Part shown: in pieces, positions 35,075-41,080 of the stretch
How positions within the stretch are numbered: position 1 is the stretch's first letter
How the letters are laid out: each line of letters starts with the position of its first letter
Origin: an uncultured Monoglobus sp.
GTDB taxonomy: Bacteria > Bacillota > Clostridia > Monoglobales > Monoglobaceae
Assembly: GCA_947585115.1 (NCBI GenBank)
Contig: CANPWW010000004.1
Span: 1-64,000, forward strand
DNA length: 64,000 nt
Direction of reading: 5' to 3'
Program-made: the position numbers and the translations under genes
Notes under the pieces: model-generated
Database searches by the model: none
The model's input: only the letters and a program-made list of their open reading frames with translations
What the model was told of the DNA's origin: nothing

Positions 35075-37168
35075 ATGGCAATCTACAAATGCGCGGTATG
35101 CGGCGCGATTTTCGACGAGGAAAAAGAAGGCAAATCAATATCCGAAATATCGGTCTGCCCGGTTTGCAAACAGCCCGCGTCAAATTTTGTTTTGGCCGAG
35201 GAGACAAAGCCCGCGCCCGCTGCCGCGTTTGAGGGCGATCTCGCCTACGATCCCGCATATCTCCGCACCGGAACCGACAGCCGCTATATGGACGCGATCC
35301 ACCAAATGGCAGTCAGCGGCAAGTATATCAGCGCCGCGATGGGTACCCTTCTTCCGCTGCCGTCGTGGGACGATATTTTATTGCTCGGCGCTCAGCTGGA
35401 TCCGCCGCCCATGAATGACGGAGACGATATTGACACAAAGACCGTTATCGGCAAGCACGCCAAACATCCGATGGTTCTTGAAAGCCCGGTCTATATTTCA
35501 CACATGTCGTTCGGCGCGCTCTCAAAAGAGGTAAAAATAGCGCTGGCGAAGGGCTCCGCCGCGGCGAAAACAGCCATGTGCAGCGGCGAGGGCGGAATCC
35601 TGCCCGAAGAAAAGGCCGCGGCATATAAGTACATATTTGAGTACATACCCAACAAATACAGCGTGACCGACGAGAATCTCAGAACATCAGACGCGATAGA
35701 GATCAAGATCGGGCAGGGCACCAAGCCCGGCATGGGCGGACACCTTCCCGGAGAAAAGGTGACGCCCGAGGTCGCAAAGATTCGCGGCAAGAAAACCGGC
35801 GAGGACATTCAAAGCCCGAGCAAATTCCCCGAGATCAATTCAAAAGAAGATCTCAGGGCAATGGTTGACATGCTGCGCGAACGCTCGGGCGGCAGACCGA
35901 TAGGCATAAAGATCGCGGCAGGCAGGATCGAACGCGACCTTGAGCACTGCGTATACGCGAACCCAGATTTTATCACGATAGACGGGCGCGGAGGCGCCAC
36001 CGGCTCAAGCCCCCTGATGCTCCGTGATTCGACGAGCGTGCCCACGATATACGCGCTGAGCCGCGCGAGAAAATATCTTGACTCGGTCGGCTCGGATATA
36101 GCGTTGGTTATAACTGGCGGGCTGAGAGTATCGTCCGACTTCGCGAAGGCTCTGGCTATGGGAGCCGACGCCGTGGCTATAGCAAGCGCGGGACTTATCG
36201 CGGCGGCATGTCAGCAGTACAGAATATGCGGCAGCGGAAACTGCCCCGTGGGCGTCGCCACTCAGGACCCCGAGCTGCGCAAGAGGCTCAATGTAGACCC
36301 TGCGGCGCAGAGGGTCGCGAATTTCCTGAACGTATCGCTGGAGGAGCTTAAAACCTTCGCGAGGGTTACCGGACATAAGTCCGTGCACGATCTGTCGCTT
36401 GACGATCTTATCACGATCAACGAGGATATCGCCAAATATACCGGCATCGCACACGGCGGTCTGCCGACCGGAACAGAGAATATAAAGAAAACAAAGGAGG
36501 CAAAATCAATGAAAAAATATAAATGCAAGGTATGCGGAGAAATTTTTGAGGTCCCCGAGGGAACCGAGCCCGTCTGCCCGCTCTGTAAATCAACGGGAGA
36601 CAAGCTTGAGGAGATCAAAGACACACCCAAAGCGGGAAAATACGCGGGAACTCAGACCGAGAAGAATCTGCACGAGGCGTTCGCGGGCGAGTCGATGGCG
36701 CGAAACAAGTACACTTATTTCGCCTCAATAGCCAAAAAAGAGGGCTACGAGCAGATGGCGGCGCTGTTTTTAAAGACCGCCGAAAATGAGAAAGAGCACG
36801 CCAAGCTGTGGTTTAAAGAGCTTGACGGTATCGGAAACACTCCCGAAAATCTTAAAGCTGCGGCCGACGGCGAAAACTACGAGTGGACCGATATGTACGA
36901 TGGGTTCGCTGTTACCGCCGACAAGGAGGGTTTTCCGGAGCTCGCCAAAAAATTCAGAATGGTCGCGGCGATAGAAAAGCACCACGAGGAACGCTACAGA
37001 GCCTTACTCAAAAATATCGAAACCGCGCAGGTATTTGAAAAGAGCGAGGTCAAGGTGTGGGAGTGCAGAAACTGCGGACATATCATTGTCGGCACAAAGG
37101 CGCCCGAGCTGTGCCCCGTATGCCTCCATCCGCAAAGCTTTTTTGAGATCAACTGTGAAAATTATTAA
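35075..37168 (+). CDS. Rubredoxin - glutamate-synthase FMN domain - rubrerythrin fusion
   Basis: 697 aa with five modules: rubredoxin-like zinc/iron ribbon (C6, C9, C28, C31); glutamate-synthase large-subunit FMN domain (about 70-465) with [23 protein letters not shown] and the C-x5-C-x4-C cluster [12 protein letters not shown]; a second rubredoxin (C484, C487, C501, C504); a ferritin-like rubrerythrin domain (about 520-650) with ExxH ligands in [23 protein letters not shown] and [10 protein letters not shown]; and a C-terminal rubredoxin (CRNC ... CPVC). Rubrerythrins reduce peroxide; the FMN domain may pass electrons. In-frame ATG 36509 has a perfect AAAGGAGG 8 nt upstream, so a separate 219-aa rubrerythrin may also be made. 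No stop separates the parts. Confidence 0.9.
36493..36511 (+). promoter_or_regulatory. Internal ribosome binding site and start for a stand-alone rubrerythrin
   Basis: AAAGGAGG (36493-36500), 8-nt spacer, ATG (36509-36511) in the frame of the fusion gene. The following residues [10 protein letters not shown] are a normal rubrerythrin N-terminus. Confidence 0.7.
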
Positions 37169-37213: not shown

Positions 37214-37495
37214 TTATCTTTTGGCGCTTATCTCATGCAGACAATATTTGCAAACATATTTTTTTCTGTATTTTACGGCTATGTCATCCTCGGTGCCGCA
37301 AAAGGCGCAGGCGGGATTTTTTCTCTCTATTATCAATCGGTCGCCGTCCATATACATGTTTACCTCAACGGCTCCCGTGTCCTTGTCGAGATTGATCGTA
37401 TCCTCAAGCTTGCGCAGCATCAGCTCTCTGCGCATCTCTTTCGGAACGACAAGCCTGCCGTTTATATCCATATCTCTGCTGATAGCTTTTTTCAT
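37214..37495 (-). CDS. AbrB-family transition-state regulator with C-terminal zinc ribbon
   Basis: 93 aa. The N-terminal swapped-hairpin DNA-binding domain reads SRDMDINGRLVVPKEMRREL, and about 45-60 completes it with VNMYMDGDRLIIERK. Two CxxC pairs follow (CAFCG and CKYC), likely to bind zinc, as in many clostridial AbrB proteins. AbrB-type proteins repress genes during growth and are released as sporulation begins. It is adjacent to the germination operon. Ribosome binding site GGAGGATC precedes ATG 37495. Confidence 0.9.
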   Translation of the reverse strand: MKKAISRDMDINGRLVVPKEMRRELMLRKLEDTINLDKDTGAVEVNMYMDGDRLIIERKNPACAFCGTEDDIAVKYRKKYVCKYCLHEISAKR

Positions 37496-37526: not shown

Positions 37527-37555
37527 AGTATATCACAGTTTAAATATTTTGTCAA
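37527..37555 (-). promoter_or_regulatory. Vegetative promoter of abrB, overlapping the end of the germination gene
   Basis: Minus strand TTGACA (37555-37550), 17-bp spacer, TATACT (37532-37527). The -35 overlaps the stop codon region of the GerB-GerC gene at 37552. Confidence 0.75.
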
Positions 37556-39510
37556 TTTATAGTGTAAAATTTTATTTCGGGATTTTCTATAAAAACGTCG
37601 GGCGAGGTTCCGATAAAATCATTGTATTGTGTCTCGGTCGAGAAATTCATTTTCGCGCACTTTCTGAGCTCGAATATATCGGCGCCTTCTGCGTACAGGC
37701 GTTTTATTATCTCTCTGAGACTTTCTTCAAAATGCACGCGTCCGCTTTGCGAGATATTTCCCGAGGCGTCCCTCGGGCTGGCAAGGCGCAGACTTATACT
37801 TCCGTATATGCAGCCGTTTTCGATGTTAGAGCGCGCTTTTGCTCCGCACTTTCCTCTAACATAGTACGGTTCGCCGTCCGCGGTTTCGAAAAATATCGGC
37901 TCATCGGTTTTTCCGAACGCGGTGTTTAACAGACTGCATTCATCGCCGCCGAGATATAACGGAGACGCGCCGACAGGAAAAAGCAGGCCTCCGTTCAGTC
38001 CGCTTTTATTCACCTCCGCCATACAAGCGGAACCGTCTGTTGCGGTCACAAACTCCAGCAGATTTGTTTCAAAGCTGACAACTGCCGACTTCTCGGAAAA
38101 TAACAGCTCGTAATATCTGGCGGGGCTTTCCTCCATCGCGGGCTCGACCGATGTCAAATATTCTCTTGAATTTTCCGCGGCGCACAGCTTTGTCTCGGGC
38201 CTCACCTCATTGGCGCTCAAGAAACTTTTGCATATTTCCTCCGCCTCTGCCGAACCGACGCCCAGCAAATCATTCGAGATCACCAGAAGTTTCATGTGTG
38301 ACAAAGCCGCCGACTTGCCGAGATATGACTTTGATTTTTCAAGCGCCTCAAAAATATTACGCGCTCCGACGGTTATATTGCTGACCGCCTTTTTTTCTGA
38401 GCCGCTTTCTCCGCTTTCATCATCGGTCTCATCCGATGTTTCCGCGCTTGTGTCGGAGCCGTTTTTAAGGGGATTTGAAAACTGGAGCGTAAACTCATAT
38501 CCTGCTTCGGTATCAGCGGGATCTACGCCTGCCGCTATGATATATGCGGTGTTTTCCACGTCGCGCGCATCTCCGCAGCCCGCGAGCGGAGTTATAATTA
38601 AGGCGCAGAGCAAAACCGTCGCGGCGCTTTTCCCGAATGTCTTGCTGCGGAATCCTAAGCTTGCCAGTAGTTTTTTGACCGCTGTCAAAAGAGCCGATAT
38701 ATAAAGTATCGCCGACGCTGTCTTTATAATTATATAAAGCGCGTCAAGGCGCATGTTGAGGCGGCTCATTCCGGAGAACCCCGCCATGACGCGCGTAAGG
38801 TCAGCGCCGCTGAGCGCGGCGTATTCCGCGTTTATCGACAAAAACAGAACGATATAATATAAAGCGTAAAGAGACGCTCCGATAACAGCAACTATTAAAA
38901 TATGCTTTGATTTTCGCTCTTCCTCAAACAAAAGCAGATACGCCGCAGGCAATATAATTCCCGAAAACGCGAAAAGATTTCTTAAAGCAGATAAAGCGAC
39001 TGTTCCGGCTCCGTTTCCCAGGAGCGGCGCCGCGTTGTACACGTCGCAGCGAGGCAGGGCGTTTATGATGATAAAAATCAGACCCGCGGCAATAACGGGT
39101 ACGCACAGGCCGTGCAGCTTAAACATCGCTCCCTTGCCTCCCCGCGTAATTATAAACACAGCCGCGGCGAGCACAATAAGTATCAGTATCCACGTTGTGT
39201 TTAAATACTCGCTTCGGCCGAGATCGTTTATCAACGAGTATGAATAATAGATCGCCTCGCAAATAAAATACGCCGCCAAAACAGCGAATAAAGGTTTTTT
39301 AACCGCGCGGCGCTCAATTAATTCGATTATCGCGCCTCGAAGCGGATATATCACTAATGCGATGATCGAAAAAAGCAAAGCGGATATTGCCGCCGCAAGC
39401 GCGGCGGCGCTGCCGTTTTCAATGAGCAGAAATCCCGAATAATCGAGAAACAGCTTCGCCGTAACGCAGTTCAGTGTCAGACAGCTCAGATTAAAATTAA
39501 ATCTCCTCAT
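37552..39510 (-). CDS. GerB-GerC fusion: spore germinant permease joined to germination lipoprotein
   Basis: 652 aa from ATG 39510 (AAGGA 9 nt upstream; TTG/ATG starts nearer the site are less likely). Residues 1-285 are a membrane permease of the GerAB/GerKB type with about 8-9 hydrophobic helices. At about 290-312 comes KSAATVLLCALIITPLAGC, a complete lipoprotein signal with lipobox, and then a Ger(x)C domain (DVENTAYIIAAGVDPA ... NPLKN ... NIFEALEKSKSYLGKSAALSHMKLLVIS ... LLEFVTATD ... ESLREIIKRLYAEGADIFELRK). GerB and GerC are normally separate. An acidic linker (SAETSDETDDESGESGSEK) sits inside the GerC part. No start or ribosome binding site is visible at the junction. Acts in the spore inner membrane with the GerA protein. 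Confidence 0.85.
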   Translation of the reverse strand: MRRFNFNLSCLTLNCVTAKLFLDYSGFLLIENGSAAALAAAISALLFSIIALVIYPLRGAIIELIERRAVKKPLFAVLAAYFICEAIYYSYSLINDLGRSEYLNTTWILILIVLAAAVFIITRGGKGAMFKLHGLCVPVIAAGLIFIIINALPRCDVYNAAPLLGNGAGTVALSALRNLFAFSGIILPAAYLLLFEEERKSKHILIVAVIGASLYALYYIVLFLSINAEYAALSGADLTRVMAGFSGMSRLNMRLDALYIIIKTASAILYISALLTAVKKLLASLGFRSKTFGKSAATVLLCALIITPLAGCGDARDVENTAYIIAAGVDPADTEAGYEFTLQFSNPLKNGSDTSAETSDETDDESGESGSEKKAVSNITVGARNIFEALEKSKSYLGKSAALSHMKLLVISNDLLGVGSAEAEEICKSFLSANEVRPETKLCAAENSREYLTSVEPAMEESPARYYELLFSEKSAVVSFETNLLEFVTATDGSACMAEVNKSGLNGGLLFPVGASPLYLGGDECSLLNTAFGKTDEPIFFETADGEPYYVRGKCGAKARSNIENGCIYGSISLRLASPRDASGNISQSGRVHFEESLREIIKRLYAEGADIFELRKCAKMNFSTETQYNDFIGTSPDVFIENPEIKFYTIN

Positions 39511-39515
39511 AAACA

Positions 39516-41069
39516 TCAATCCTTATCGCGGGGCTTATTATTTTTGTCATACTTCCACTTTCGGCTGATCTCGGGCTGCTTGATCTCGTCCTGCGGCATC
39601 AGCTCGGGCGGACGCTTTTCCTTTTTCCAGATCGGCTTTACCAGCACCGACTCGGAGCTGTGCCCGCCCGCCCTGTAGCGGCTGAGGAACGGCACCCCGA
39701 AGGTCGTGGTGGACGCGAGCAGGCTGAGCGTGGCTATGACTGCGGCCGTGAGACCCGGCAATCCGAAAAAGTACGCGGCGAAAATATATATGAATTTAAG
39801 CACGCTGAGCGAGCGCGACAGCGACAGCGTCGGAGTCGAAAAAGAGCCGATCCCTCCCAGCGAGACGATAATTATCAGCAGCGGGCTGACTATGCTTGCC
39901 TCGACCGCGGCTTGTCCCAAAATAAGACCGCCGATTATACCGAGCGTGCTGCCTATGGGATTCGGCACCCTGACCGACGCCTCTTTGATAAGCTCAAACG
40001 ACAGCTCCATAAGCAAAAGCTCGAGTATCAGAGGGAACGGAACCTTTTCGCGTGTGGCGGATATGGCTATCAGCAGATCTGTTGGCAGCACTTCCTGATG
40101 ATAGAGCATAACCGCGATAAACAGCGCGGACAGCAGCACAGAAACGGCCATGCCGAACAGACGCACCAGACGCATAAGATTCGCCTCGGGAACCCTGACA
40201 TAGTTGTCTTCGGTGGCCTCGATAAGATCCATTGTCGTGGTTGGCAATATGAGCGCGAACGGGCTGCCCTGCACCACAACGGCGACTTTTCCGTCCGCGA
40301 GCATAGCGGCAACTCTGTCGGGGCGCTCGGTCTTGAGCGTGCGCGTCATCGGGAAATATGTCGAGTCCTCGATCATCATCTCAACGTCGCTTGACGAAAA
40401 AATATACTCGGTGTCGATACCCTTCAGCCGCCGCGCAACCTCCGCCACAATATCGGGATTTGCTATATTGCGAAGATACATCACGGCACACGGGACCTTG
40501 TTGCTGTTGCCGACCGGTATGTTGACGGCTGTAGTATTCGGCGAGCGCAGTATCTTGCGCACAAGCGCAATATTTGTCATTATCGACTCCGAGAACGCCT
40601 CCTGGGGCCCGGCGAGGCTGACTTCCTGCGTCGGCGCGTCTACGCCTCGGTTATCCCAGCCCTTGACATCAGCAGAAAAGCAGCAGGCGCAGCCGTCAAT
40701 AAACACCGCGCAGTCGCCGAACGACACCTTTTGGCCCACCTCGTCGTAGTCGTTGAGTATCGAAAGCGGCGCCACCGAAATTATCCTCTCTGTCACAATC
40801 GCGCGGCGCCCGCGCTCGGGCGCGTCAAACTTATCGCAGGTCAAAAGCGAGCGCAAAATATCGCGGTTTAAGTAGTTCTGGTTCGTCATGCCGTCGTAGT
40901 ATATCAAAAAGCCGTCGGCCGTCTCGTTTTTGAACCCGATCTTAAACTCGCGCAGATTAAAATCCATGTTGTTGTCGGGGTCAAACATCTCTTTAATTAT
41001 TCTTTTGTTTTCGGATATTGACGCGTTGATCACTTGTATCACCGAATATATTTTTGCCTTCGCTCCCAT
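39516..41069 (-). CDS. Spore germination protein GerA/GerKA
   Basis: 517 aa from ATG 41069. A hydrophilic N-terminal half (about 1-300: NRDILRSLLTCD, AVFIDGCACCFSADVKGWDNRGVDAPTQEV, RGPQEAF-like AGPQEAFSES, KILRSPNT, LKTERPDRVAAMLADGKVAVVVQGSPFAL) precedes five or so membrane helices, including GLTAAVIATLSLLAS. This is the GerA-subunit pattern of nutrient germinant receptors. Typical length is about 480-540. A longer frame to 41324 runs through the divergent gene and is rejected. No ribosome binding site precedes ATG 41069; the message may be nearly leaderless (see the promoter at 41081-41110). Confidence 0.88.
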   Translation of the reverse strand: MGAKAKIYSVIQVINASISENKRIIKEMFDPDNNMDFNLREFKIGFKNETADGFLIYYDGMTNQNYLNRDILRSLLTCDKFDAPERGRRAIVTERIISVAPLSILNDYDEVGQKVSFGDCAVFIDGCACCFSADVKGWDNRGVDAPTQEVSLAGPQEAFSESIMTNIALVRKILRSPNTTAVNIPVGNSNKVPCAVMYLRNIANPDIVAEVARRLKGIDTEYIFSSSDVEMMIEDSTYFPMTRTLKTERPDRVAAMLADGKVAVVVQGSPFALILPTTTMDLIEATEDNYVRVPEANLMRLVRLFGMAVSVLLSALFIAVMLYHQEVLPTDLLIAISATREKVPFPLILELLLMELSFELIKEASVRVPNPIGSTLGIIGGLILGQAAVEASIVSPLLIIIVSLGGIGSFSTPTLSLSRSLSVLKFIYIFAAYFFGLPGLTAAVIATLSLLASTTTFGVPFLSRYRAGGHSSESVLVKPIWKKEKRPPELMPQDEIKQPEISRKWKYDKNNKPRDKD

Positions 41070-41080
41070 AATTATACATT

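Follow-up and report, generated by a model that had tools for sequence, protein, structure and literature searches.

We found that gerB and gerC, the genes for the B and C subunits of a GerA-type germinant receptor, form a single uninterrupted reading frame in the window, the 64,000-nucleotide stretch of DNA from an uncultured Monoglobus species that was analysed here. A complete lipoprotein signal peptide lies within the joined protein, between the two halves. The fusion is genuine, and its operon is the sole germinant-receptor operon that we found in the genome. The most probable reading (about 0.6) is that the product is a polyprotein that would be lipidated by Lgt and most likely cut by LspA, giving GerB and a lipoprotein GerC in a 1:1 ratio.

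A gerB-gerC fusion in a germinant-receptor operon

The features of the operon and its surroundings are as follows.

37214..37495, minus strand: gene for a 93-aa protein with an AbrB/SpoVT-like N-terminus and a CxxC zinc-ribbon-like end (weak profile matches; conserved neighbour)
37552..39519, minus strand: gerB-gerC fusion gene, about 655 aa (single open reading frame)
37555..38574, minus strand: GerC (Ger(x)C) part, residues 316-655 (PF25198; GerBC structure 3n54 by sequence and fold)
38575..38658, minus strand: residues 288-315, a basic loop in the cytosol followed by the internal type II signal peptide (hydrophobic at about 298-311; lipobox L312-A-G-C315)
38659..39510, minus strand: GerB-like permease part, residues about 4-287, transmembrane (TM) helices 1-8 (sequence alignment, AF2 model and fold)
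39516..41033, minus strand: gerA (A subunit), 505 aa, probable start GTG 41033 behind GGTGAT (PF03323; conserved upstream block)
41049..41077, minus strand: forespore sigma-F/G-like promoter candidate, GTATA-N14-GGCAAAAATA (position conserved in Monoglobus relatives)

The sequence-only reading had claimed a GerB permease running through an LAGC lipoprotein signal into a Ger(x)C domain in one frame, and this is borne out by the uninterrupted reading frame, the domain matches and the lipobox cysteine, Cys315. The B and C subunits, which are separate proteins in GerA-type receptors, are thus one reading frame here. The junction region, 38600-38660, where that reading had advised looking for a missed frameshift or stop, contains neither, and the frame is open for 655 codons. 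This length is counted from a TTG; likelier starts are ATG 39516, which overlaps the gerA stop, and ATG 39510, which touches the end of gerA, the fusion gene (37552-39519, minus strand) lying directly behind gerA. The assembly is a draft of 2.34 Mb in 125 contigs (90% complete), and the fusion locus was the sole permease locus found in it.

The A subunit is encoded directly upstream and overlaps the fusion (PF03323, E=4.6e-146). A longer, 602-aa reading of gerA from a TTG overlaps a divergent flavodoxin-like gene; gerA probably starts at GTG 41033 and not at this TTG. The block at 41049-41077 resembles the sigma-F/G consensus. The gene for the 93-aa protein lies just downstream of the fusion here and is its neighbour in most fused genomes; in genera g4 and g8 it adjoins gerC, and one genome (G017) carries three copies of it. 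Another fused gene lies nearby on the plus strand (35075-37168); its single frame encodes rubredoxin-like, glutamate synthase, rubredoxin-like and rubrerythrin domains. Within it, a GGAGG (36496-36500) and an in-frame ATG (36509) precede the rubrerythrin part, suggesting that a second, shorter product may be made.

Conservation and origin within Monoglobaceae

A protein query of the contig collection returned only two near relatives. A search of relatives for the same fusion, which the sequence-only reading had called for, yielded a single uninterrupted GerB-GerC frame in 20 genomes from four genera of Monoglobaceae (g1, g5, g6 and g9), at 23-89% identity to the window protein and including a genome assembled as one contig (G005). 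Separate gerB and gerC genes were found in 14 genomes from five other genera of the family. That reading had named, as evidence against itself, separate genes in close relatives together with an error at the junction; the split genes occur only in these other genera, and the junction is intact.

The GerA tree groups the fused genomes in a single clade (support 100/98), also when outgroups are included. Once it is rooted, the unfused genus g3 comes out as sister to this clade, though support is modest (80/65). Comparisons of close relatives gave a dN/dS of about 0.1-0.2 for the gene as a whole, with the two halves alike, and no broken copies of the fusion were seen among the fused relatives compared. 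These comparisons indicate that the fusion is real, long-conserved and of single origin in this clade, with purifying selection acting on both halves.

The permease half has lost two transmembrane helices

The GerB half is matched by TIGR00912 (E=1.1e-6) and by PF03845 at a score below the cut-off (E=5e-4, 19.4 bits against 23.4), and the Foldseek matches of its model are APC transporters (LAT1, AdiC and ApcT structures). This sub-cut-off PF03845 match, TIGR00912 and the fold assign it to the B subunits of the APC-type spore permease family. Alignment with split GerBs and B. subtilis GerAB showed that TM1-8 are kept and TM9-10 are absent in all 20 fusions, with the GerC signal helix located at the TM9 position. 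The B part therefore consists of eight helices plus the signal helix, not of the ten transmembrane helices of a canonical B subunit. The AF2 model of the fusion (pLDDT 84.8, pTM 0.84) places eight helices with confidence but the signal helix, 292-313, only weakly (about 57), and a break at 312-318 (below 50) precedes the GerC fold; TM9 of a split ten-helix relative is placed at about 80-90 in its predicted model. The low confidence that AF2 gives to the signal helix is weak evidence on how this segment may be placed.

Unfused GerBs in the family vary in length. Those of genera g7, g8 and g2 have ten helices and about 360-390 aa. In genus g4 (L057, L060), GerB is 304 aa long and ends after TM9, with gerC overlapping by 4 bases (ATGA). 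In genus g3, GerB is 300 aa long and ends after TM8 (L064:5708-5760, L065:5901-5955), and the apparent gerC start is an ATT that shares bases with the gerB stop (ATTAA) and has GGGGGTGA just ahead. Because the g3 GerB ends after TM8 and the gerC start overlaps the gerB stop, a single frameshift would convert the g3 form into the fused one or the reverse.

For B. subtilis GerAB we aligned what we take to be its sequence, and its 365 aa and all five pocket positions agree with the published description (PMC8617281). The L-alanine pocket of GerAB is formed by G25, V101, L199, G200 and T287 (PMC8617281), where the window protein has A, E, S, G and Y, so that this pocket is not reproduced; the sister genera likewise deviate from GerAB at these positions. 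Across the 38-genome family, residues matching G25 and T287 are absent from all aligned GerBs; most have Tyr in place of T287, and Asp or Glu predominates where GerAB has G200. In these respects the proteins differ from B. subtilis GerAB, and the altered residues hint that Monoglobaceae GerBs may respond to a different germinant.

An internal lipoprotein signal ahead of the GerC half

The C half belongs to the Ger(x)C-family C subunits, as shown by PF25198 (E=8.7e-20, 71.7 bits, above the cut-off of 27) and by the GerBC structure 3n54, which matches by sequence (E=5.7e-7) and by fold (Foldseek, E=2.5e-8). TIGR02887 stayed below its cut-off on this half, and PF05504 was not reached by the C-terminal domain of the window protein.

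The signal ahead of it is KKLLASLGFRSKTFGKSAATVLLCALIITPLAGC, ending in Cys315, and it has the features of an Lsp-type signal, namely a basic n-region, a short hydrophobic h-region and an L-x-G/S-C lipobox. The type II signal and lipobox cysteine expected of a C subunit are thus present, but they are internal, at residues 288-315 of 655 and not at the N-terminus of a precursor. All 20 fusions have L-[ASC]-[GS]-C at residues 312-315 and three to eight K/R in the cytosolic loop ahead of the h-region, and the hydrophobic stretch is about 14-17 residues long (in the window protein, about 17 residues between K297 and C315). With near-copies removed, the lipobox is the most conserved of 312 four-column windows of the alignment in the GerB and signal half and the fifth of 652 overall, and residues 288-311 are more variable than either half (entropy 2.19 versus 1.93 and 1.86). 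The processing genes lspA and lgt were each found in 37 of the 38 family genomes, including that of the window.

A second, independent fusion in the same phylum

A phylum-wide search of 399 genomes found gerB and gerC in one frame at a contig edge in another genome (G705, L120:2341-4158). Its genus-mate G804 (L132:2-1504) shares this junction; the piece is longer there and includes all of a ten-helix GerB. In the sister genera g251 and g321, gerB and gerC are separate, overlapping out of frame in those examined. The gerC ATG is replaced by GTA or GCA in the lineage of G705 and G804, and an F-S-G-C box is common to this fusion and the split sisters. This second fusion, in two species of a distant genus of the same phylum, is independent of that in Monoglobaceae. 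Since the ten-helix fusion keeps TM9-10, its signal cannot be needed as TM9, yet the lipobox is retained.

Two long frames, in G415 and G172 (838 and 789 aa), were rejected as fusions, with gerB and gerC in frame but a stop between them, and the genes are separate in the long frames of G620, G789, G738, G061, G217, G300, G199 and G312. No other fusion was found among the matches listed in the searches of the order, the class and the phylum (51, 391 and 399 genomes), in which few candidates were scored per genome; further fusions in Bacillota, besides those in Monoglobaceae and in G705/G804, may exist. The second origin, the loss of TM9-10 and the unfused eight- and nine-helix GerBs of sister genera had all been overlooked in the sequence-only reading.

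Proposed processing of the fusion protein

In the proposed route, a single chain would be translated. TM1-8 of GerB would insert so that this segment begins and ends in the cytosol, after which the former signal peptide of GerC would re-initiate export in mid-chain and pass GerC to the outer face. Lgt would diacylglycerylate Cys315, and LspA would most likely cleave on the N-terminal side of this residue. This would release a GerB of nine helices, the ninth being what remains of the signal, together with a normal lipid-anchored GerC; the two, in a forced 1:1 ratio, would then assemble with GerA. Signal peptides must start in the cytosol, and this is the side on which an eight-helix GerB ends, which makes the topology compatible with both a cut and an uncut product. 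These are the two options of the sequence-only reading, a tether through an extra helix or lipidation with cleavage, and they proved to be the right ones to weigh.

The evidence bearing on processing is genetic and comparative, and it favours lipidation and cleavage, because the lipobox stays unchanged across 20 diverged fusions and an independent one while the remainder of the signal drifts, and because the genome encodes both Lgt and LspA. Lipidation of Cys315 by Lgt appears very likely given the conserved lipobox, and cleavage by LspA at the internal signal appears probable, although less so, given the lipobox residues at -3 and -1. C subunits are known to bear a diacylglyceryl anchor, and GerF (Lgt) is required for normal nutrient germination (PMC11841064, PMC8539644, PMC13170314); the cysteine is less important in some B. 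subtilis C subunits, such as GerKC (PMC11841064). The lipobox could be retained for lipidation alone, and the hydrophobic stretch could act as an uncut TM9. In the literature searched, no case came up of LspA working on a signal within a polytopic protein.

The main competitor, which we consider possible but clearly less likely, is an uncut tether, in which the former signal peptide serves as TM helix 9 of GerB, GerC is held covalently outside, the lipid on Cys315 is optional and the receptor has two subunits, A and BC. It would explain why the frame stays uninterrupted across four genera and why the signal aligns with TM9 of ten-helix relatives where TM9-10 are lost, and it accords with the unfused nine-helix (g4) and eight-helix (g3) GerBs of sister genera. 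A precedent is OpuABC, a permease to which the binding domain is attached through an anchoring helix (PMC11065425). However, an invariant L-x-G-C would be superfluous for a plain tether, and the anchoring helix and linker of OpuABC are reported to be non-conserved (PMC11065425); it is this difference that leads us to prefer the cleaved polyprotein. The second fusion also has all ten GerB helices, so its signal cannot substitute for TM9, and the helix in the window protein is short (about 17 residues, K297 to C315) and weakly placed in the AF2 model.

It is very unlikely that the fusion is a decaying receptor in a lineage abandoning sporulation. Such decay would fit the loss of two helices and of the pocket glycines from GerB, the failure to find Spo0A in the window's own 90%-complete assembly (G000) and the description or prediction of some Monoglobaceae as non-sporulating (PMC11536998, PMC12536801). 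It is opposed by the purifying selection that acts along the entire gene (dN/dS about 0.1-0.2), by the finding of no broken copies, by Spo0A in most relatives, close ones included, and by conservation of the sigma-F/G-like promoter candidate.

Slightly less likely still is an internal start, by which GerC would also be made separately and the fusion would be an overlong by-product. The internal ribosome site in the other fused gene nearby (36496-36511) and the ATT start of the unfused g3 gerC give it some appeal, but the fusions share no recurrent start codon near the signal that has a convincing ribosome site, one of them lacks any start codon in the last 45 codons ahead of the Cys, and the gerC ATG has become GTA or GCA in the second lineage. 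Finally, an assembly or sequencing error, a missed stop or frameshift joining two normal genes in a draft of 125 contigs, was rejected as extremely improbable, with the fusion found in 20 relatives at 23-89% identity, one of them a one-contig genome, and with a GerB lacking TM9-10, which a frameshift cannot account for.

Relation to known systems and meaning

The fusion is a variant of the GerA family, and its role in spores and germination is assigned through this membership. As in the B. subtilis receptor GerAA/GerAB/GerAC, the A, B and C parts follow in this order in one operon, with PF03323, an APC-type B fold and a C part with PF25198 and a lipobox; unlike in B. subtilis, B and C are one gene, and B has eight helices and a signal helix in place of ten. 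The GerBC protein of 3n54, to which the C half is related by sequence and fold, is itself a separate C subunit. No GerB-GerC fusion is described in the literature searched. The cytochrome bc1 polyprotein of Bradyrhizobium (fbcH), which signal peptidase I cuts at an internal signal, likewise joins a membrane subunit to an exported one, but its signal and the enzyme that cuts it are of type I, in contrast to a lipoprotein signal, and the proteins are unrelated. In the ABC importers OpuABC and GlnPQ, a normally lipid-anchored partner on the outer face is also joined to a membrane protein through a hydrophobic segment; the protein families differ, and a complete lipobox is kept here, whereas the anchoring helix and linker of OpuABC are reportedly not conserved (PMC11065425).

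The broader proposal, a germination polyprotein with an Lgt-modified internal signal cut by signal peptidase II into a nine-helix B and a lipidated C at 1:1, arisen at least twice in Bacillota, has in our judgement an even chance of being right. Germinant receptors have been modelled as five or six A-B-C units (PMC11841064, PMC8539644, PMC13170314). Their stoichiometry has so far come from models, and B-C fusions kept by selection, from which B and C would be supplied 1:1, argue directly for equal numbers of the two. The fusion places the membrane anchor of GerC beside the TM8/TM9 site of GerB, and it is a candidate case of signal peptidase II cutting inside a polytopic protein. Through its invariant internal lipobox, it offers a natural setting in which to test how much the lipidation of C subunits matters. 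The loss of TM9-10 shows that a B subunit reduced to the pocket-lining helices (1, 3, 6 and 8) and their partners can still be conserved. In these gut-dwelling relatives of Monoglobus, one gene thus encodes both GerB and GerC, two components of the sensor that wakes spores.
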